The notes under the pieces: model-generated
Seen by the model: only the letters and a program-made list of their open reading frames with translations
Database searches by the model: none
What the model was told of the DNA's origin: nothing
NCBI GenBank assembly: GCA_026745465.1
Contig: JACYXH010000175.1
Coordinates: 6,592,501 to 6,656,500 of the forward strand
Origin: Lota lota
Taxonomy: Eukaryota; Chordata; Actinopteri; Gadiformes; Lotidae
Direction of reading: 5' to 3'
Length of the DNA: 64,000 bases
Shown: positions 27,392 through 48,895 of the stretch, piece by piece
How the letters are laid out: every line of letters starts with the position of its first letter
How positions within the stretch are numbered: position 1 is the first letter of the stretch
Position numbers and translations under genes: made by a program

Positions 27392-28795
27392 TGGAGTGTG
27401 TGTATGTGTGTCTATATCCGTGAGGGTGTTTGTGTGTATGTGCGTACGTACGTGGATGAGGGTGTGTGTGTGTGTGTGTGACTGTGTCTGCATGAGGGTG
27501 TGTTTGGATATGCATGAATGTTATGGACGGGATTTTTGAGTGCCGTTATGAGTTGTGATTCTGTAAATATTGCACTACGATATTACAATACTGAATATAT
27601 ATTAAGTGAAAGATACACTATATTGCCAAAAGTATTGGGACACCCCTCCGAATCATTGAATTCAGGTGTTCCAAACACTCCACAGGTGTATAAAATCAAG
27701 CACCTAGGCATGCAAACTGCTTCTACAAACATTTGTGAAAGAATGGGTCGCTCTCAGGGGCTCAGTGAATTCAAGCGTGGTACCGTGATAGGTTGCCACC
27801 TGTGCAATAAGTCCATTCGTGAACTTTCCTCACTACTAAATATTCCACGGTCAACTGTTAGTGGTATTATAACAAAGCTTGGCGGTTGCCAGGAGAATGG
27901 TACTTGCCTGACTGCATTGTGCCAAGTGTAAAGTTTGGTGGAAGGGGGATTATGGTGTGGGGTTTGTTTTTCAGGGCTGGGCTTGGCCCCTTAGTTCCAG
28001 TGAAAGGAACTGTTAATGCTTCAGCATACCAAGACATTTTGGACAATTTCATGCTCCCAACTTTGTGGGAACAGTTTGGGGATGGCCCCTTCCTATTCCA
28101 ACATGACTGCGCACCAGTGCACAAAGCAAGGTCCATAAAGACATGGATGAGCGAGTTTGGTGTGGAGGAACTTGACTGGCCTGTACAGAGTCCTGACCTC
28201 AACCCGATAGAACACCTTTGGGATGAATTAGAGCGGAGACTGCAAGCCAGGCCTTCTCGTCCAACATCTGTGCCTGACCTCACAAATGCGCTTCAAGAAG
28301 AATAGTAAAGAATTCCCATAAACACACTCCTAAACCTTGTGGAAAGCCTTCCCAGAAGAGTTGAAGCTGTTATAGCTGCAAAGGGTGGGCAGACTCCATA
28401 TTAAACCTTACGAATTAAGAATGGGATGTCATTAACCTTCATGTGCATGTAAAGGCAGGCGTCCCAAAACCTTTGGCAATATAGTGTAAATATAACAGTA
28501 AATGGCAGTTCATTGTTTAACCATGTTCCAACAGCTTTTTATTATTTTTATACTCTTTCACAGCTGTAGTTGACATTTAGTTATGCTTCATCACCTTACC
28601 TAATCTTCCACATCAACCTCTTCCACCGCCTGTCTCCCCTCCCTCTCCACCCACACACACACACACACACACACATGCAGACGGAGCCCACCTTCCACCT
28701 CACCCCCATCAGAATGATGACAGTGATGGACGGGCAGAAGCTGGACAGAGCGCTGGTACACAGAAACCCCCCCCGCACACACACACACGCACGCA

Positions 28796-28827
<32 letters not shown>

Positions 28828-31618
28828 CACACGACCCTCCCCACTTATTGCAACCAGTCTGCTCAGGCCACATTACCTGGGTTGTCAGAGGAAGTTCACA
28901 GCAGGTGTGTCAATGTGTGCACACACCGCCAGCGGGGCTGAGTGCCTTACACAGACGTATAGGGAGAGGCAGGCTATTGACGCCCGCCTCTTCCAGAGGG
29001 AGCCAACAGCACGACTATAGCCGTAATCCCTCCACATCAGTCATTGCACTGTCTACAAAGAATGACGGAATGGTAACCAAGATTGATTTTGTTAGGCGTG
29101 TCTAATGTCATGCATCGGTTGTGTTTGTTTTTGTGGGGTTTTTTCATCAATCTGTTGCTGCCTGCGAGCCTGCTTATGAGCTTAGCAGAGCAAACATGAA
29201 TTATTTGCAATAACACGTCTGTTTATTTGGGATGTGTGGATCATCTAGGGTCAGGTGATGGTGAAACTCAACATCGAGTACCCGACACATCTGGCTGAAG
29301 AGTTAACTTTCTCTCTCGACAATACTTGACACGATTGCAATGCTGACGGAAAGGGTTGAAACAACATATTATTCCACGCCCCATGCACAAAACACTGAGG
29401 GACACACACCATACTATTATAATACAACCAAGTGAATATATGATGAGCTCAGCACCCAGGCTGGTAATAACCTTTTGTTTCACCAAACGAACAAGAACAT
29501 ACAAACACACTGAAACACCTCGTCAACATGAAACCAGTGTTGCTGGTTGACTATACATTTTGTGTCAATTGCTGGATTGTTGTCAAGTACAGTTCAAACA
29601 CACCCATAACCCCCAACACACCCCCAACCCCTTTCACAGATTAACTCCATTCGAAGTCAGAAACAGGGGCAGAAGCGTGCTGTAGACCCCAGGGAATCTC
29701 TGAGAAGCCAAGGAGGTGGAAGCATGGTAGGCGCTTGCGGTGTCTTCTCTGTCAACAAGAGGGTGCTGTAGCCTTTCTTTAAGTCATCCAATAGTACTGC
29801 AGTTGTCCTTTTAAAATATGATTGCCTTCTAAACAGTTTTCAAACATGATTTTTACTTACTTTCAGTACTCAACTTGGAATTCAAATTGGATGATGTCCA
29901 TCATAGTAAGTTGCGTTCACTAATGCTTAACTGACTACTTGTTATTGCTTCTATATTTTTCAAGTTCATAAAAACTGGCTAAGACTATATTTTCCAAAAT
30001 CAATTTGATCGCAATTCTGCCCATCCCTCTCTTTTTTAGAATGGTTCGCGCCAATTCGCAAAGACCTCAACCCTGCACTCGGATCAGCACATCGCAGAAC
30101 ACATAGACTGCGTAAGATCTATTTACCTGCAACCTATATTCCTAACTTGTGATGTTGCACTAAATCACCAATTCTAGGTGTGCCTAGCCTACACTATGGA
30201 GAGGCTAATAGCGCTGAAGCCGTTATAGTCAATGATGCTGCATAGCTATCATTTGGTTGCTTTTCTCTTTCAGATCAAGACGAAATAGTTTAGTGGTGGC
30301 CTAATAACTACACTATTAGGACCTAATTGTGATCTAACTCACATCTATACAGAAATGTTAACATAAGCTACTAGTTTTACTTTTACTTCTACTACCAACT
30401 TCCACATTATTTAAACTTCAACTTGAATATTTGGCTAATAGGTTCATTATAAATAATACTATAATAATAAATATACGCTTATGGGCTGTGCTCACAAGTC
30501 CTAGACCGTTTTCAATCACACCACTGTACTCACCACAAGACAGGCTTATAAAAAAAAGAGTTCAATTACATTTTATAGATGAATGAACGAACCTATTACT
30601 GTGCTGTAAAACGTGTGTTCCTTCTCTTTCCTTCTTATGTGCAGCAGGTGTTCCACAAAGTGATGGTCCGCCATAAAACAGATTGCCGTCTGCCTATTAT
30701 GGGTTGTTTTGCATCTTTAAAGATAAATCAGTGCTGGAAAGGACTGGATTTGTTATAACCCAGGGCACAGAGCAGTTCCAAAACATCAGAAACTATACTT
30801 TAGCTAGTATTGCCTATAATCACGTAAATGTCATGCCTGATTACGCTTTATACTGCAAGCACTTCTTTGGCAACAATTGTGATTCGGTTACAAAAAACAT
30901 TATAGACACACCTTTGCTATTACAAAATACACAAAGCTATGTGTACTTGCACGTTATGACATTGGGATCCAAATCAAAACAGCTATAGGAATCCGTTTTT
31001 GGCAGACAATCACTTTCTGACATGACGCCTGTCCCTTCTGGTAGTCAGACAACAGGCTGAGCGCACTGCGTTCACTTTTCCCTACAGTAGATCAAATAAT
31101 ATTCACATTGCTTCATTTAAAATGTTAAATTATATATATTTCATTACCTACTGATACAACCTATAGGATTTGAATTCAGGGGCCCTGTCTAGGGGCCTCT
31201 CCCTCTCAGGGCGCCCTCAACCGCCATCACCTTTCCCCTCTTTACCATGCTGCTGTCTTTCCTGGCTGCTTGACAGACTTTGGGCTCCTTTAACTTGAAC
31301 AAACAAGAGGAAACAAGTTCTAATGGATTTGTACAGCGCAGTATTAAGAAGTTGCTTTGAAGGAAGCTACTGAGATATACTCTTGGCTGGTTGATTCAAC
31401 AGAAGCTGCATGAGCAAAGGGAAGTGTCTTGGGACTACCCGCTCTACCACCCCACTGAGTTCACCTACGAGGGCAAAGGCAGCAGGTCTCAGTCACTGGA
31501 CAAGCTGTCACTGGACCTGGGTGACAACCTTGACTTTCTCAGCGATCTGGGCCCCAAATTCAAGATCCTGGGAGGCATCTGTGACCAGAACCTAAAGGAG
31601 TTAAACATACAGCTTTGA
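17085..31618 (+). CDS. cdh26: cadherin-26-like protein, gene A
   Basis: Exons: 17085-17111, 21756-21848, 22122-22274, 22812-22959, 24280-24452, 24773-24901, 25024-25209, 25373-25647, 25739-25881, 26059-26289, 26436-26663, 27204-27325, 28681-28755, 29640-29726, 29867-29905, 30040-30111, perhaps 30645-30659, and 31403-31618. About 803 residues. After a short leader comes a furin-type site RSKR and then RWVLSTF, placing the conserved Trp at mature position 2 as in classical cadherins. Five cadherin repeats follow, with linkers [27 protein letters not shown] and DINDNLPGL, a membrane-proximal CDC pair, one membrane segment ([14 protein letters not shown]) and a cytoplasmic tail ending in a catenin-binding-like [13 protein letters not shown]. 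It is expected to mediate calcium-dependent adhesion at the cell surface. The CDH26 assignment rests on tail and synteny; a cadherin-1-like name is the alternative. A possible extra prodomain exon (about 21592-21659, ending NKRDKR) has a weak acceptor. AATAAA at 33135 may be its poly(A) signal. Confidence 0.85.
17912..19212 (-). mobile_element. hAT-superfamily transposon relic with 8-bp target duplication
   Basis: Perfect 8-bp direct repeats CTCTAAAT flank the element (17904-17911 and 19213-19220). The ends match as inverted repeats: CACGGGTGCC on the left, and CAGGGGTGCC on the right read from the other strand. Minus-strand frames between 19090 and 17960 encode pieces like the ZBED5/GTF2IRD2-type hAT transposase, e.g. 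[20 protein letters not shown] and [15 protein letters not shown], then [11 protein letters not shown] and the C-terminal [12 protein letters not shown]. Frames are broken, and the N-terminal BED-finger part is absent, so it is inactive and internally deleted. It sits in intron 1 of cadherin gene A. Confidence 0.9.
19500..21260 (-). mobile_element. degenerate Ty3/Gypsy-like retrotransposon fragment
   Basis: On the minus strand a gag-like region (about 21115-20350) contains the SCAN-like pattern [21 protein letters not shown] and a downstream ETYR motif. Further on (20230-20060) comes a piece resembling the RNase H-proximal segment of pol, [17 protein letters not shown]. Protease and most of the reverse transcriptase are missing, and stops interrupt the frames. 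No matched LTRs were identified. It lies in intron 1 of cadherin gene A. Confidence 0.65.
22031..22102. repeat. (TG)n microsatellite next to a splice acceptor
   Basis: About 35 TG units that end some 20 bp before the acceptor of the 22122 exon of cadherin gene A, so the tract occupies the branch-point/pyrimidine region. Confidence 0.9.
22333..22400. repeat. dispersed repeat V, copy 1
   Basis: TCAGAATGCATCATGGGAT and the following 40 bp resemble 34660-34735. Confidence 0.55.
22993..23525. repeat. dispersed repeat W, copy 1
   Basis: Contains TGCCAGACCAATTCGCAAAT and CTCAGTTCATTTTCGATTTC, shared with 61525-61880. This copy is longer through an insertion around 23160-23330. Probably a MITE, in an intron of cadherin gene A. 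Confidence 0.7.
23579..23612 (+). repeat. LINE/SINE 3'-tail-like motif
   Basis: GGATTTCCCTCCGGGGATTA then ATAAAGTG. The same motif type occurs at 24666, 34389 and 62745, and inverted at 26884. It resembles the conserved 3' end of fish LINE/SINE elements. Confidence 0.45.
23735..24083. repeat. MITE-like repeat Z, copy 2
   Basis: Same layout as 12605-12870, with about 80 extra bases near 23910-24005. In an intron of cadherin gene A. Confidence 0.65.
24506..24664. repeat. (CA)n microsatellite, interrupted
   Basis: About 160 bp of CA with periodic GACACACACACGCACA variants. It starts about 50 bp after the donor of the 24452 exon. Confidence 0.95.
27327..27388. repeat. (TG)n microsatellite at a splice donor
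   Basis: About 30 TG units start immediately at the donor of the transmembrane-proximal exon of cadherin gene A, with GTTTGTGTG as the first intron bases. Confidence 0.9.
27614..28488 (+). mobile_element. internally deleted Tc1/mariner transposon
   Basis: Terminal inverted repeats TACACTATATTGCCAAAAGT (left) and its reverse-complement form ...TTTGGCAATATAGTGTA (right) bound 875 bp and start/end with TA. The left part encodes the helix-turn-helix region of a Tc1 transposase ([35 protein letters not shown]). It then jumps at about 27885 to the C-terminal catalytic part ([29 protein letters not shown]). The middle, with the first catalytic aspartate, is missing, so it is non-autonomous. It lies in an intron of cadherin gene A. 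Confidence 0.9.
28785..28832. repeat. (ACGC)n and (CA)n microsatellite
   Basis: About seven ACGC units between CA stretches, just downstream of the 28755 donor. Confidence 0.9.

Positions 31619-32299: not shown

Positions 32300-32329
<30 letters not shown>
32300..32329. repeat. poly-C homopolymer, 30 bases
   Basis: Thirty consecutive C, unusually long. The exact length may be an assembly estimate. Confidence 0.9.
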
Positions 32330-36398: not shown

Positions 36399-37308
36399 AT
36401 GGACACAATATCTTCCAGCTTCCTCGTCATCCTGGTAAGGTTGTAGCGTCTGCTCCTGATTATGTTAAATAACTTGTATACCATTTAGATACTGCTAATA
36501 TGTTTCTTTATATAATATGCAGCCATTCCAGTTTATCCATGCCACGGTGGAGGGTATTCATACTCATTCAAACGTTGTACATAGTTTCCTCTGGCATGCT
36601 CTTGCAGATCCAGCTGCATCTGTTTTTGCACAGCCTAGACCCCTTTCAACCCACCGTAACTTCTAAAATGTCATTTCGATTACATAGAACCAGATATAGG
36701 GACAGAGTCTGTTTCCAATGGCTAACATATCATTCAGTTATTGCATGCTATTGAGTGTAGATGGATATTTTAATTTGTGTTGAATACATAAAACAATACA
36801 TGTGAACCAAACGTGTAATAAGAAATCAAAAAATGTCATAATCATTCAATGCATTTGTTTTAGTTTCTAGGAATCAACTATTCATCCTCAGATATTTTGC
36901 ATCGGCAGAAAAGAACCTGGATAATAGATACCTTTCAAATTGAAGAGGAATATAGTGGAACATTTCCGTATGTACTAGGCAAAGTGAGTAAAGAGGATGT
37001 CAACACAATACTTTATTTTTTGAGCACAGTGCCGCAGTGAGCCTTTTATACTTTCTGCTGATTTGACATCTTCCTCAGATTGAACTGGAGAATAAGTTCG
37101 CACTTCTGAAGCTGCACGGTCAAGGAGTCGATGAGGACCCCATGGGTAAACTGCAGATTGATGAAAACACAGGCGTTGTCAGTGTGCTTGGCAAATTGGA
37201 CTTTGAGAAAAACAGAAAACTTACGGTTTGTTTCAATTCATAAAGTGTGTCTTTTTTGTTATGTATTCTTATTTAGGACATCAATATATGTGGAACGAAC
37301 ACTTTATT

Positions 37309-37356
<48 letters not shown>

Positions 37357-40300
37357 ATGTGTATGTGTATACATTTAAATATATATATATATATATATAA
37401 GTATATTCTTTTTTAAATTGCAGCTGCAATTTGAGGCATTCGACAAGATTAAAAATGTCATAGACACCAAACTATCTGTGGAGGTGCAAATCTTGGACAT
37501 AAATGACAATATTCCTACTTTTGATAGACCTAGTTATACGGTCCACTTGAAAGAGTCAGCCACACAAGGTAAATTCTGTATTACATGTAATGATGGTATA
37601 CATGGTATTACATAATTACAATATATCATTTATATTGACTGTTGTTGTTTTTTACAATAAATGGTTGGGCAGTATATACACCTTTTTTTTCTCCCAATTC
37701 AGGTTCATATGTGATTGTTGTTCATGCAAAGGATTTAGACTCAGGAACGACCAATAATGGCACGTTTAATTTGAGAATAGTCTCTGTCTTCCCGGAACCC
37801 TCTGGCGTGGAGTTCTTCATGGAACAGAATGGTCCCTATGGAAATATTTCATTTAGAGGGTGTCTGGACTATGAGGTGAGAGAAGTTTTGTATATCATTC
37901 TGTAGGGTTTTTACAAGAAAAAAAACATCGAAACAAACACTTGTTATTGGACCCACACTTTTTTTCCGACACTCAGAAAGCAAAGAGATACACTATCCTG
38001 GTGGAGGCGAAAGACCGTGGGGAAAAGGTTCAGCTGTCAAGCACCTGCACTGTGGTAGTCAATATTGATGATGAAAACAACCACCTTCCCATCTTCACAG
38101 GGCCAACGGTCAGCATGTTCTCTTTCCTATGCTACCGTTGTGGCGTCAAAGTTCAATTGTTGTGTCATATATAATATATATGTTATAATTTTTTTATTTG
38201 GTCTCATTTGTCCAACATTTATAAATCTCAGCATACAGCCACTCTCAAAGAACGAGCGGTAGATGTGGAGGTTTTACGCATGCAAGTAATGGACAGAGAC
38301 ACCAAGGCCACAGACGCATGGAAGGCCAATTATATAATCCACGGAAAAAGTGGCGATAACTTCAGAATCGACACAAATCCAGAGACAAATGAAGGGGTCT
38401 TGTACGTGACAAAGGTATTTTGCTTTTGAAAGTAAAGATTTCTAACACATTGTTAAATGCAGCGCTCTACTCATCTATCATTTTCAGGCATATAATTTAT
38501 GTGGTTGTTGAGCGTACAAAATTATTGAGTATGGAATGTCATCACATGTTTATCTAGCTATTAGTAAGATGTTGTTTGAAGCACATATTAGGAATTACAA
38601 AATACATCTACACTTAGCGCACACACAGTTGCATACATCCACAAATGTGCCAGAAGGCTACTGCAGTGACATACTCTATATGCAGGATACAAGTGCACAC
38701 ATTCATTCATTCACAGCATGGCAGGAAAACAAACATAGGAATCAAGTACAGCGTGTGTACTTAGAGCTGCCATCTTGAACATGGTAAACACTACTGCCTG
38801 ATTACAGAACTGAAACTGAGGGGTATTTTAAGGTATTTTTTATCTCTGTAACAAAGTTGTAGATGTGGTCGTAATAGCCACAACCAAATTTAAAACAACA
38901 ATTGTGTTGTGTGATGAGCCATACCAACAATTGGTACGGCAAAGCCATACCAATTTATTAACTACATACACTACTAGCAAATCAAAGGCCTTAATATCAA
39001 TCCGTCCATCTGCTTTTCTTTCGGTAGTAACAGGGCATGTATAGGGCAGTCCAGGTGATCCTTTCCCTGTCAACTTCCTCCAGCATAGCTGCTGCTTTAA
39101 CTCTTCTTCCTATCCAGCTATACTGCAGTGGAATGACGTGCTTGAGCCACACTTAGCCATGCTCTTACTTTGGTCACTACTCAAAGCTTGTGGCCATAGG
39201 TGACAAAGGATCGAAAACACAGATTAACATTTTACGCAGTGCTCCCATGTTGAAAATATAAACCATCTGCTTCCTTTTTCCATTATGGAGCTTTGTTGAC
39301 TGTAAAAAAGATCTGTTGAAAAATACAACACCTTTAATCCATACTTTCCTCGTTATTTTCTTATAGCCTCTGGACTACGAGGACCAATCGGTTTTGAACT
39401 TGACCATTACTGTGGAGAACCTTGGGAAATATTTTTCATGCACGGTTGTTTCCAAGGCTGTTTCCAGCAATGGTCTTTGGAACGTGATGAAAACGACAGG
39501 GAAGGATCAGCTGTCCACGCGCATTGTGATAGTGAATGTGGAAGATGTGAACGACCCACCCATATTCAAGCCCATTAACAAAACAGTGATGGTGTATGAG
39601 GACATTGCTCTTGGGTATAATCTGGGGAATATGACAGCAATTGACAGGGATATGTCACATGGAAACAAGATTCAGTGAGTTCGCAACAACACTATTTCTA
39701 TACCCACATATAGAAAAACTCATTTTTGAGAGACCCCTTACATGTCTTTAAACTAGGAGCTTTGGTTACTATTTGAATGATGATAAAATATTGATGATTA
39801 ATAACTAAACAACTTACAGACAGTATCCCATGTCTTCCAGGTATGCCAAAGGAGCGGATCCTGGTGATTGGGTGACTGTGGATCCAAATACCGGTGTCAT
39901 AACAACAGTCAAAACATTAGACAGAGAATCATCTCTTGTTAAAGACAATATCTATACAGTCACAGTGTTTGCTATTGACGATGGTACGAACCTTTGAAGT
40001 TGTGTCCCAAAAATTGCTGCAAAGCGAACAACCGTTTAGATCTCCTGATTGCTTGCAATCAGAAGATCTAAACGGTTGTTTGGTCTTCTCTATGATTGAC
40101 AGGTAAGCCTCCGGCAACTGGAACCGGGACTCTGTTAATACGCCTTAGAGACCGAAATGACAATGTTCCCCAACTGGCCACAAACTCGTTTGGAATTTGC
40201 ATCTCCGATGCCATCGAGCATTCCCAAGCAAACCTCTCTGCCTTTGATCTCGATGAAGTGCCCTTCGCTGGGCCCTTTTACTTCAAACTCCACGGAGACG

Positions 40301-42817
40301 TGAAGAACAAGTGGAGGATTGACCCTGAAAATGGTAACTTCGCCCCCATAAGCATATAAAAATTTATAATTTAACAAAAGCGTGTTTATAGACACAAAAA
40401 GAGAATATACAGTATAGAGTTCAGTGTGTGAACTGGCGTGTGTCCTCTCCTGCTCCCCCCCCCCCCCCCCCCCCCCCCCCCACCTCCCCCCGGCTGTGTT
40501 GCAGGGTACTCCGTCAACCTCATCCGAGAGGACAAGGTCCACGCCGGGCACCATGAGCTGCTGCTGGAGGTGTCTGACCAGCAGGACTATTCTGCTCTGC
40601 ACAACCTCTCGGTGCTGGTGTGTGAATGCAAGGCCTCCGAAATGGGGGGCATGCCTAGCTGTCTCAGCCGCCAAGGCTCCAGATCCGTTGGTTTCAGGGG
40701 AGCCTCTCCGATACTGTTTTTTGCCATTCTACTCCTATTAGGTATATGGCCACGTAAAAAAAAATGTCTAGTGCTATTACACTGTTACATTTCAAGACTG
40801 ACTGATGTGATACCAATGTTTAATGTGTGGTTGTTGTTGTTGTGTTCTATCTCAGGTATATTGCTTTTGTCGCTTCTACTATCGTGCAAGAGGCAGGTTA
40901 TTTTCATGCCAGATGAAGGGACGGAACAAAACCTGATTCCCTCAAACACGGAGCACCCAGGAAGCGACTGCAAGGTTAGAATACTTGACACAACATGAAT
41001 TAGATCAGGATTAACAAGAATATTAGTGTTGTAATATTATATGTTATATTAAATGTGAGTCATGACAAACAACACCCTATTGTGACAAATGGGTTTCAAG
41101 ACCTTACATCAAGAGAAGGAAGAACAGGGGACATATGTGCAAGGCACTAGCCACCAGGTCATTTATTTATCCGATTATGACTCATACTGTTGTTAATATT
41201 TAATTTATATTTTATATTTTGTTCCAGGTTTCCAAATATGAAACTGATAATTGCTTTACAAGGACAAATGTATGAAACATAATTAAATAAACAAAAACCT
41301 GTCCGTATTATGTTATGTATGCATGATATCATCATTGGATTAACTTTCTTAAACTATTTTATCATTTGTTTAGCTCCAGGCTGCCGATTCGGAAACTGAT
41401 GTCTTTCAAAAGCCTAACGTACGTAAAAAAATAAATACATAAAATAACAATCTCTGCTATTATCTTATGTAATTATGCATTTATCATAATAAAGTACAAA
41501 TAAATACATTGCAATGTATACTTATCTCATAATATTTCACAAATGTTATTTTGTTTCAGACTTCCTTTCTGGGAACTCATAATAGCTTAAGAAGCACAAA
41601 CGTATGCACAAATAAATAAATGAACCCTCTCCTCTATTATCAAATATTTGCATGAAATACAATAAAGTCAAAATAAATATATTGCATTGGATTCATTTTT
41701 CTCATAATATTTCACAAATGTTCTTTTGTTCCAGACTTCCTTTCGGGAAACTTCCAATGGCTTAACAAGTACAAACGTATGTAAAAAAAAAAAGAAGAAA
41801 AAGAAGAAAAAGAAACACAATGACCTTTTCGTGTATTATCACATTTTTGTATGAAATGCAATAAAGTCAAACTAAATGTATAGTAACGCATTAACTTTTC
41901 TCATAATATTTCATAATTTTATTTTGCTTCAGTCTTTTATCAGGAAAGCTCATAATGGCTCAACAAGGAGAAACGTATGTACTAATAAATAAATAAAAGA
42001 ACCCTCTCCTCTGTTATCAAATGTTTGCATGAAATACAATAAAGTCCAAATAAATATATAGTAATGCGTTAACCTTTCTCCTAATATTTCATAATTTTCT
42101 TTTGCTCCAGTCTTTCATTAGGAGAGGTCATAATGGCTCAACAAGGAGAAACGTATGTACTAATAAATAAATAAAAGAACCCTCTCCTCTGTTATCAAAT
42201 GTTTGCATGACATACAATAAAGTCCAACTAAATATATAGCAATGGATTCACTTATCTCATACTATTTCACAAATGTTCTTTTGTTCCAGACTTCCTTTCG
42301 GGGAACTCATAACGGCTTGACAGGGACAAACGTATGTACTAATGAATGACCATTCCATTATTTGGCATTTCTGTGTTTCTGACACCTTTCATACCATGGT
42401 CATAATTCTTCCCATGCAGAGTGAACATTATGCTGCTTGGGACGGGGAAGACTATTTAGAGCATCGCAAATTCCTGCAACATTTTCTAGAAAGGGTAATA
42501 ATAATAAATACATATATACAGTATATATATAGTTATATTATATGTGCTGACTTGTATGAAGCGCTGCCTTGATTGATTAGTTGCGACATGCTTTTGCTGT
42601 CTGTGTGCAGAGATTCACGATCCTCCAGGCACCAGCAGAGGAGCTGGGAGACTACACCCCTCACCTGTACGCTGAGGAGGGACACCCGGACAGCAGCCCA
42701 CAGCTGGACCCTATCCCCATCCAGGAGATTCCCTTCGACCCGGACATGCTCCAGTCCCTGGACCCAAAATTCAACAAACTGGGCTCCCTCTGTAGCCCCG
42801 AAGACACATTCTCGTAA
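36399..42817 (+). CDS. cdh26: cadherin-26-like protein, gene B, with mini-exon-encoded tail
   Basis: Exons: 36399-36434, 36864-36983, 37079-37225, 37424-37568, 37703-37875, 37977-38108, 38232-38414, 39367-39674, 39841-39983, 40103-40333, 40505-40741, 40856-40974, seven mini-exons (41228-41269, 41374-41418, 41560-41601, 41735-41776, 41933-41974, 42111-42152, 42290-42331), 42420-42494, 42611-42817. Sum 2553 nt, 850 residues plus stop, all phases consistent. A leader exon is followed by furin site RQKR and TWIIDTF (Trp at mature position 2). There are five cadherin repeats with linkers [27 protein letters not shown] and DRNDNVPQL, a CEC pair, and a membrane helix ([19 protein letters not shown]). 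The tail ends with an acidic catenin-binding-like segment, [11 protein letters not shown]. Several ectodomain exons have exactly the same length as in gene A (173, 143, 231 nt), so the two are tandem duplicates. A cell-surface adhesion role is inferred from the family. Confidence 0.88.
37316..37399. repeat. (TA)n microsatellites ahead of an acceptor
   Basis: Two TA blocks (37316-37347 and 37381-37399) in intron 3 of cadherin gene B, ending about 25 bp before the 37424 acceptor. Confidence 0.9.
40027..40080. repeat. near-perfect 26-bp hairpin in a 119-bp intron
   Basis: The left arm (40027-40052) pairs with the right arm (40055-40080) across a two-base TT loop. All 26 positions pair except one C/A opposition (40044 with 40063). 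It lies inside the intron between the 39983 and 40103 exon borders of cadherin gene B. Confidence 0.95.
40457..40482. repeat. poly-C tract before an acceptor
   Basis: About 25 C. It is part of the pyrimidine-rich run leading to the acceptor of the 40505 exon of cadherin gene B. Confidence 0.85.
41228..42331 (+). repeat. tandem array of seven in-phase mini-exons with homologous introns
   Basis: Each exon is 42 nt (the second is 45) and phase 0 on both sides. In order they encode [85 protein letters not shown] and [14 protein letters not shown]. Units 3 to 7 recur every 175-198 bp. Their introns also match, each with AATAAATAAAT, ACCCTCTCCTC-like text, TTTGCATGA and ACAATAAAGTC. This shows duplication of whole exon-intron units. 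The peptides add a Ser/Thr- and Arg-rich linker between the membrane helix and the catenin-binding end. Confidence 0.9.
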
Positions 42818-46501: not shown

Positions 46502-46732
46502 TTAGGGGTTTGCTTAGCTCAAGAGGTAGAGCGGGATGACTTGTAACCGGTTGCTAGTTCGATCCCCGGCTCCTCCTAGCTGAGTGTCTAGGTGTCCCTG
46601 AGCAAGACCCCTAACCCTAAATGCTCCCGACGAGCTGGCTGTCGCCTTGCATGGTTGACTCCGCCGTGAATGTGTTTATGAATTGTTGTAAGTCGCTTTG
46701 GATAAAAGCGTCTGCTAAATGCCATAAATGTA
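46502..46732 (+). mobile_element. tRNA-derived SINE with target-site duplication
   Basis: The head has an A box (TAGCTCAAGAGG) and a B box (AGTTCGATCCC) of RNA polymerase III type. The tail GTCGCTTTGGATAAAAGCGT then CTGCTAAATG is the conserved domain found in vertebrate V-SINE-type elements. AATCATTC occurs on both sides (46494-46501 and 46733-46740) as target duplication. Confidence 0.85.
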
Positions 46733-46990: not shown

Positions 46991-48895
46991 CTACCACCTA
47001 GTGGCCGTGCCGTCTCCTTCGACGTAGCCGTCGTACAGCTCTCTGAGATGCAGGATCAGCTCCTCTGTGTTGTGTCCCTTGAGAGCCGACACAGGGATCA
47101 CCCTGTGGGGGACCCGGCTCCTCAGAGCCTCCAGGTTTCCCCGGGCCTCGGGCAGGTCCATTTTGTTGGCTACGATGGCTTGGGGTCGTTTGGACAGACC
47201 CGGCTCATACTGGTCCAGCTCGTAGCACAGTTGCTCCAGGTGAGTCCAGGGCTCTGGAGAGGACATGTCCAGGACAAACAGCAGGAAGCGGCAGCGCTCG
47301 ATGTGACGCAGGAAGGAGATGCCGAGGCCGCGGTTCAGATGGGCCCCGTGGATGATGCCTGGGATGTCGGCCACTGGACAAGAGCAAAAGCACCCGTTTG
47401 TTTAGCTGAACGACAGCGTGCAAGATACCACAGTCTCCGGGAAGCCGAGAAAAAGCATGTTACCTGCTACTTGCTCGTGGTCCCTATACTTCACGATGCC
47501 CACGTGTGGGTTCAGTGTTGTGAAGGGGTAGGCGGCGACGGCAGGCTTGGCGTTGGAGATGGCCCTCAGGAGCGAGGATTTTCCTGCATTTGGAAACCCG
47601 ACCTGAAGAGGTTCCATATGTTTTATTGTTCATAATCTGACGACCAAAATGACATACTGAAGTACAAAAGGAGCATATTCATGGTTCTGCAGTATGAGAT
47701 TTATTGTAAATATACAATATATACTAATCTTTTTGTACCAATGTGTTTTTCTAAAATTGGAACACCACGCACCTTTTCTGCAAAATCCTTGTTACGCACC
47801 TGTTCTATAAAGACTTTTTATTCAGAAAAGGACTGCTTACCAGCCCAGCGTGAGCCATGGTGCGTAGCTCAAGCTGTAAGTGCCTTTCTTGACCTGGTAT
47901 TCCAGGAGTGGTCGTCATTGGCGCCCGGTTTTCATTTGAAAGAAAGAAGCGATTTCCCTTTCCTCCTGTACCACCAAACACTGCCAGATACTCCTGACCA
48001 TGCTGAGAGAGATCTGCCACCATCGTTCCTTGCTCTTTTACCACAGTGCCGATTGGGACCTGCAAACATAGACACACAGTGATAGAAATGCATTAGGTAC
48101 ACAATATATATCAATGAAAGCATGTGTTGACTATATACATTTTAGAAAGAAATACACACACACCAAAATGTAGGTTATGCTGCCGTTCCGACCATAACAG
48201 TTTTTACTGCCGCCTGATTGGCCATCTTCTCCCTTATACAGTGGTACCACCTGTGCCAATGACTTGATAAGGCGGTCAACTGAAAGCAGACACATTTTGT
48301 TTTGGCAGATTTGAAGACACAAAGCTTCTTTATTAAACATGAAAAATGAAAATAAAAGTACAATGTTGAATGAATAATGCAGGCATGTTTTTATTACAAA
48401 TATACTGGGCCTATCATTTACCTTTGATAATGATGTTTCCCCCATCACCTCCGTTCCCTCCATCAGGTCCGCCCCACTCCTTCCGGGGTTCACTATGGAA
48501 GGAGCAGACTCCTCGTCCACCTGACCCAGCTGCCAGCTTCACATTGCGGTAGTCAATAAAGTAACGTGTCTGGGGAAACACGTCATAGTAGAAAATCGGA
48601 GGATTACCCATACAAAGGGCTGTTATCGTATATATATATATATTGCATACATGTGTCAGCATACCAGTTTTTTCTCAGAGAGAGGTTTCTTCTTCTGGAC
48701 CACTCGGGCTTTGGCACACAATGAAACTGTAGTGCTAAGGTCTCTGATCTCTACTGCTTTCCTCTGTACCGCTGATTGTGGAAAGCTGTTGTTTAAAAAA
48801 AGCATCCTTCTGCTTTCTTGTTCACAATTTCGTCCTTTGAGTAATGTTTGTGAAAGCCAGTTGTAGCACTTGCTTCTCGACAATGTTTTCAACAT
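46991..48895 (-). CDS. mtg2: mitochondrial ribosome-associated GTPase 2 (Obg family)
   Basis: Six minus-strand exons: 48665-48895 (start ATG), 48422-48569, 48164-48279, 47841-48059, 47464-47602, 46991-47373 (stop TAG). Total 1236 nt, 411 residues, close to the length of vertebrate MTG2. The N-terminus is basic and looks like a mitochondrial presequence. The Obg fold has glycine-rich loops ([36 protein letters not shown]). The GTPase domain shows G1 [10 protein letters not shown]2 YPFTTL, G3 DIPG, G4 NKMD and G5 VSALKG. It acts in the mitochondrial matrix in late assembly of the large ribosomal subunit. No break or missing motif is seen. TTTATT on the plus strand at 46905 could be its poly(A) signal. 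The next gene upstream is the decayed SS18L1-like locus. Confidence 0.96.

Follow-up and report, generated by a model that had tools for sequence, protein, structure and literature searches.

The locus considered here raises the question of how seven consecutive mini-exons came to lie in the cytoplasmic tail of a cadherin gene of Lota lota, and whether they enter every transcript or are spliced in varying numbers. The window, i.e., the whole stretch of 64,000 nucleotides that was analysed, contains two cadherin genes in tandem, A and B, and it is gene B that carries the array (Table 1). Joining the exons of gene B, which have GT/AG borders, gives a single open frame of 848 residues with no adjustment needed. 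The product has five Pfam cadherin repeats (PF00028) and a hydrophobic stretch of 20 residues that, judged by eye, is the membrane helix, and in the PDB its extracellular part finds matches in Cadherin-2, EP-cadherin and desmocollin-2; by its extracellular repeats and its membrane helix it is a member of the cadherin superfamily. It also contains RQKR, which we take to be a furin-like motif. The pair A/B is located near an OBG-type GTPase gene, and a third copy, C, is present elsewhere in the genome. With the tandem pair, the third paralogue and the GTPase neighbour, and with the name resting on synteny, it is plausible that gene B is cadherin-26.

Several other features of the window are recorded here. 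The GTPase exons lie at 46991-48092 on the minus strand, with matches to GTP1_OBG at 72 bits and to MMR_HSR1 at 28.8 bits, and belong, as we assume, to an MTG2-like gene. A UnaL2 LINE 3' element is found at 46675-46728 (71 bits), and C-rich runs occupy 32300-32329 (30 nt) and 40455-40491 (37 nt), the latter lying shortly upstream of one of the gene B acceptors. Intron 9 of gene B contains a near-perfect hairpin of 25 pairs at 40026-40081 (-41.5 kcal/mol, z -8.7 versus shuffles), which matches only itself and its own antisense in the genome and no Rfam family at gathering, and which may represent either a precursor of microRNA type or a single foldback element.

A sequence-only reading of the locus had placed seven consecutive mini-exons, all in phase 0, between the membrane exon and the tail end of gene B, and the coordinates proved right: each exon is preceded by AG and followed by GT, and no stop is met in the joined frame. 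The lengths had been given as 42-45 nt, which is correct for six exons (42 nt each), while unit 2 has 39 nt, or 45 nt through a tandem acceptor (tttag/CTCCAG/GCT, 41370-41380) of which the upstream choice adds Leu-Gln in frame. The 39-nt form starts at the acceptor homologous to those of the other units and the 45-nt form six bases upstream. Since every length is a multiple of three and every phase is 0, any subset of the exons can be skipped with the frame preserved, as had been claimed; retention of the intron after an array exon leads to a stop in all seven cases. The introns after the array exons have lengths of 88-156 nt, and the whole array encodes 97 residues with a net charge of +8. 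The H-N-G core that the modules were said to share is exact in three of the seven units (5, 6 and 7), with unit 3 having HNS and unit 4 SNG.

Table 1. Positions in the window of the gene B features, the downstream TGCATG sites and the tail exons of gene A
Feature	Position	Strand	Remarks
Gene A tail exons	28681..31618	+	75, 87, 39, 72, 216 nt; all phase 0; no array
Gene B, cadherin-26-like	36399..42817	+	21 exons, 848 residues
End of membrane helix and first cytoplasmic stretch	40856..40974	+	ends GSDCK; phase 0 at end
Array exon 1	41228-41269	+	14 residues
TGCATG	41320..41325	+	+51 from donor of array exon 1
Array exon 2	41380-41418	+	13 residues; alternative in-frame start 41374 adds LQ
Array exon 3	41560-41601	+	14 residues
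TGCATG	41649..41654	+	+48 from donor of array exon 3
Array exon 4	41735-41776	+	14 residues
Array exon 5	41933-41974	+	14 residues
TGCATG	42026..42031	+	+52 from donor of array exon 5
Array exon 6	42111-42152	+	14 residues
TGCATG	42204..42209	+	+52 from donor of array exon 6
Array exon 7	42290-42331	+	14 residues
Exon after array	42420..42494	+	75 nt, phase 0; joined frame
Terminal coding exon of gene B	42611..42817	+	conserved with paralogue C (C: DYNPHLYADEG)

The array is a feature of gene B. Gene A has none, as the earlier reading stated, and no homology was detected between its tail exons and the units; in the model of gene A, the chosen start of exon 7 lacks a preceding AG and the first exon is provisional, and the array argument uses the tail of gene A alone, the donors of its exons 1-12 serving also among the splice-site and motif controls. 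A DDE_3 transposase stretch, which we take to be Tc1-type, is found at 27862-28305 (47.5 bits) in the intron after the membrane exon of gene A. Paralogue C was found by a genome search with the last 93 residues of B on another contig (G000:C314:1058939-1059136); it is likewise cadherin-26-like, its model covers 11 exons from the middle of the gene onwards to the end, and it has tail exons of 105, 42, 96 and 270 nt, all in phase 0, and no array. Over the corresponding parts, identity is 45% between C and B (455 aligned positions) and 37% both between C and A (459) and between A and B (463), and because of these identities C is taken as the closer relative of B. The GSDCK ending of the exon before the array is common to A (GSACK) and C (GTDCK), and B and C have clearly homologous terminal exons, with 42% identity over residues 25-89 of the 93-residue query. 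When the units were compared with two small exons, the one of 42 nt in C and the one of 39 nt in A, no homology emerged (14 comparisons with shuffle controls, lowest p 0.12), and a blastn search with all seven units in the tails of A and C, introns as well as exons, yielded a single 10-nt match at chance level. Small phase-0 tail exons are thus common to A, B and C, and among the three the array is confined to B. In the 575-Mb genome of 867 contigs, a search with an 821-nt array query, which skips simple repeats and very common words, places the array DNA at a single locus, with only one 34-nt stretch matching elsewhere; an origin of the array from a mobile element is unlikely, the query having matched itself and that one stretch.

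The tail end beyond the array had been called catenin-binding, which proved to be an assumption. PF01049 matches the tail of A at 28.8 bits, above the cut-off, and that of C at 14.8 bits, below it, but was not found in B, whether in the whole protein (E up to 0.1), in the tail (E up to 10) or in the terminal exon (E up to 1). Gene B thus gives no match to the C-terminal PF01049 that defines a classical, catenin-binding cadherin. A PDB search with the gene B tail of 220 residues gave no match, and one with its last 93 residues gave two, both at chance level. In human airway cells, according to extracts of PMC5809386, CDH26 pulled down actin and not beta-, alpha- or p120-catenin (given there as data not shown), and the human CDH26 locus has 23 variably spliced exons (extracts of PMC5809386).

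How the array arose can be read from the comparison of its units. Units 3 to 7 are spaced by 175, 198, 178 and 179 nt from start to start, just as described earlier, and TRF gives a period of 178 with a score of 749 over 41836-42347. The homology extends to both exon and intron, in agreement with the earlier reading: in all 10 pairs among units 3-7 the exons are 64-90% identical and the preceding introns 72-91%, and this supports tandem duplication of whole exon-intron modules. As direct repeats, five other array exons with their splice sites are 67-73% identical to the first. The exons of units 1 and 2 are 46-64% identical to those of the remaining units, and the intron between them shares 62-69% identity with the five that precede units 3-7; because this intron resembles the others, units 1 and 2 are assigned to the same family. 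By these identities the seven array exons are one family, introns included, which extends the earlier claim, limited to units 3-7. No extra degenerate unit was found by blastn (E up to 0.5) in the introns flanking the array. A false duplication in the assembly is unlikely, given differences of 10-36% among the exons of units 3-7; further identical copies may have been collapsed in it.

Units 3-7 fall into two classes, with units 3, 4 and 7 in one and units 5 and 6, which have four Arg/Lys each, in the other; the exons differ by 10-19% within a class and by 29-36% between classes. Both the exon and the final 50 nt of the intron before it show this split; in the latter there are 4-6 differences per 48-50 sites within a class and 7-11 per 47-49 sites between classes. 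The 5' parts of the introns group otherwise, with 2 differences in 87 sites for the introns preceding units 6 and 7 and 6 in 83 for those preceding units 4 and 6. This mosaic of exon and intron groupings suggests that the units have exchanged sequence repeatedly, in part recently. Note also that divergence in some exon pairs exceeds that of the introns preceding them, for which positive selection on the exons was considered and set aside: a mosaic arising from unit exchange would explain the exon excess at least as well, because the last 50 intron nucleotides group as the exons do. The pooled dN/dS among units 3-7, computed on 42 nt for each unit, is 0.98, ranging from 0.27 (units 5 and 6) to well above 1 in some between-class pairs, and in such a comparison no constraint on the protein sequence is visible between the units.

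We now consider the signals by which the array exons would be recognized. Since the array copies share ancestry, the splice-site and motif tests are not tests of seven independent points and their p-values overstate the evidence: with this in mind, the U1 pairing of the seven array donors is -1.9 to -3.5 kcal/mol, versus -2.8 to -9.7 kcal/mol in 29 control donors from A and B (Mann-Whitney p 1e-4; with a weight table in place of U1 pairing the difference shrinks to p 0.03), and TGCATG is present within 100 nt downstream of four of the seven array exons, whereas none of the 39 control exons, drawn from A, B and C, has one there (Fisher 2e-4). The array exons end with AAC or AAT and their introns start with GTATG or GTACG; the acceptors have an ordinary pyrimidine content (11-13 of 17). 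Four of the six introns between array exons contain TGCATG, whereas shuffles average 0.22 and not one of 2000 reaches four, and one-mismatch forms occur at +58 after exon 2, at +72 after exon 4 and, after exon 7, only at +12. At the least, one TGCATG arose and was then kept in four copies, and this retention apparently spans the early divergence of unit 1 from the other units, because the sites align in one column. The QKI-type motif ACTAAY, present in two of the six array introns (shuffle mean 0.81, p 0.17), is not significantly enriched. According to extracts of PMC4317164, a single 6-mer in human, TGCATG, is strongly enriched downstream of micro-exons (51 nt or less) that are alternatively spliced, with constitutive micro-exons having no such enrichment; the same extracts state that RBFOX binding downstream of an exon is known to enhance its inclusion and that RBFOX-regulated human micro-exons have weaker splice sites and longer flanking introns (PMC4317164), the intron length being a tendency and not a fixed requirement. 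The weak donors and the RBFOX-type sites of the array thus favour the optional splicing of its exons.

On this basis we propose, and hold moderately probable, that the duplicated tail modules are optional micro-exons with RBFOX-favoured inclusion in a cadherin-26 paralogue. In the proposal, a small phase-0 tail exon and its intron would have been duplicated in tandem through repeated rounds, giving the seven homologous modules, and each exon would add 13-14 polar, Ser/Thr-rich and probably disordered linker residues between the membrane and the conserved tail end. The weak 5' splice sites would hold the exons near the edge of recognition, while RBFOX proteins on UGCAUG about 50 nt downstream would favour their inclusion, and cell types would thus make tails that differ in length and charge. 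Most likely, then, the array serves as a linker with its length and charge set by splicing. Units 5 and 6 would add a basic patch together with RRNS and RRNT across their junctions; the sites RRN/S and RRN/T do span the exon junctions of these basic units, and the two RRx[ST] sites are marginal against shuffles (p 0.04). We take RRNS and RRNT to be a PKA-type motif. A more extended version, in which RBFOX-type factors set the number of units, the junctions act as a PKA-type switch and ongoing exchange varies the copy number between fish, we regard as rather doubtful. Several points speak against the main proposal, namely the short introns, the shared ancestry of the units, the two array introns with one-mismatch motifs only, the last intron with no more than a distant form at +12, and the dN/dS of 0.98.

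The same short introns, which would suit intron definition, are among the points in favour of a second possibility, that all seven exons are always included and simply make the disordered tail longer by 97 residues, like the coding repeats of other proteins. Every frame is intact and the pyrimidine content of the acceptors is that of ordinary exons, both of which would be expected for a constitutive linker. Such a linker is difficult to reconcile with the weak donors and the downstream TGCATG, which extracts of PMC4317164 tie in human to alternative micro-exons, and we consider it unlikely, though still to be reckoned with.

It might also be argued that the array consists of decayed or rarely used modules, where a dispensable exon was duplicated at an AT-rich spot and has since drifted almost neutrally, with any skipping being noise. 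A pooled dN/dS so close to 1 would fit this, as would the weak donors, and the 2 differences in 87 sites between the 5' intron parts before units 6 and 7 imply that exchange has been recent. However, all seven copies retain the frame, a length divisible by three and the splice dinucleotides. In a simulation of neutral change (assumed tree, 24 parsimony changes, 20,000 runs, indels uncounted), the five copies of units 3-7 stayed free of stops in 60% of the runs, and both free of stops and with intact splice dinucleotides in 5.5%; moreover, none of the five exons carries an indel, whereas their introns carry several. The preserved frame and splice dinucleotides are moderate, not strong, evidence that the array exons are used, and with them the decay of the modules appears improbable.

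Finally, a Dscam-like mutually exclusive cluster, with one unit per transcript chosen perhaps through pairing of flanking sites with one in the intron that precedes the array, would accord with the two classes of units and with a 12-nt site at 41159-41170 that is complementary to sites after units 3 (41612-41623, 100%), 5 (41989-42000, 92%) and 6 (42167-42178, 92%), the pairing after unit 3 exceeding 198 of 200 shuffles of that intron, but it is very improbable indeed, for seven introns were tried, the pairing sites are almost wholly A/T (11-12 of 12 bases), shuffles reach the pairing after units 5 and 6 in 29 and 23 of 200 and after units 1, 2, 4 and 7 in 68-179 of 200, so that the case for docking-type pairing is weak, and with all lengths being multiples of three the frame enforces no exclusion.

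Returning to the array as a set of optional exons, we compare it with known systems. Schistosome micro-exon genes have serial small symmetric exons that give protein variants by skipping; their products are mostly secreted parasite proteins, and they differ from gene B in that no cadherin tail is involved. In the PEVK region of titin, the muscle spring, many skippable in-frame exons tune a linker, and the tail of the cadherin desmoglein has repeated units that are not known to be separate exons. The desmoglein repeat domain is named in extracts of PMC3268089, which also treat desmocollin a/b, a cadherin with a tail altered by a mini-exon of 43-46 nt. Desmocollin differs in having one such exon, with a stop codon, that changes the tail end; a zebrafish desmocollin has no mini-exon, and no mini-exon array in desmocollin is described in those extracts (PMC3268089). 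The array is also like the tandem duplicated exon substitutions of PMC9741552, in which adjacent homologous exons result from tandem duplication, but those exons substitute for one another while here any number fits the frame. With the RBFOX-regulated micro-exons in the extracts of PMC4317164 it shares a length of 51 nt or less that is a multiple of three (all seven array exons), weak splice sites and a downstream TGCATG; unlike them, with their longer introns, it consists of seven homologous tandem copies with short introns, and the extracts of PMC4317164 hold no tandem micro-exon array.

The gene structure of the array is real, clean and unusual, and its optional splicing is plausible, with two different kinds of sequence support. 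The array joins the known kinds of tandem exon duplication and regulated micro-exons and makes no new category; a description of such a cadherin tail was not found among the best matches listed in the open-licence papers searched. If the proposal holds, the array would clearly exemplify how a micro-exon and its regulatory intron are amplified as one, the splicing regulation having been copied along with the exon. If the number of units included does vary between transcripts, a single adhesion receptor would offer, between the membrane and the tail end, a naturally graded set of linkers of different length and charge, with which the effect of linker length in a cadherin could be tested directly.
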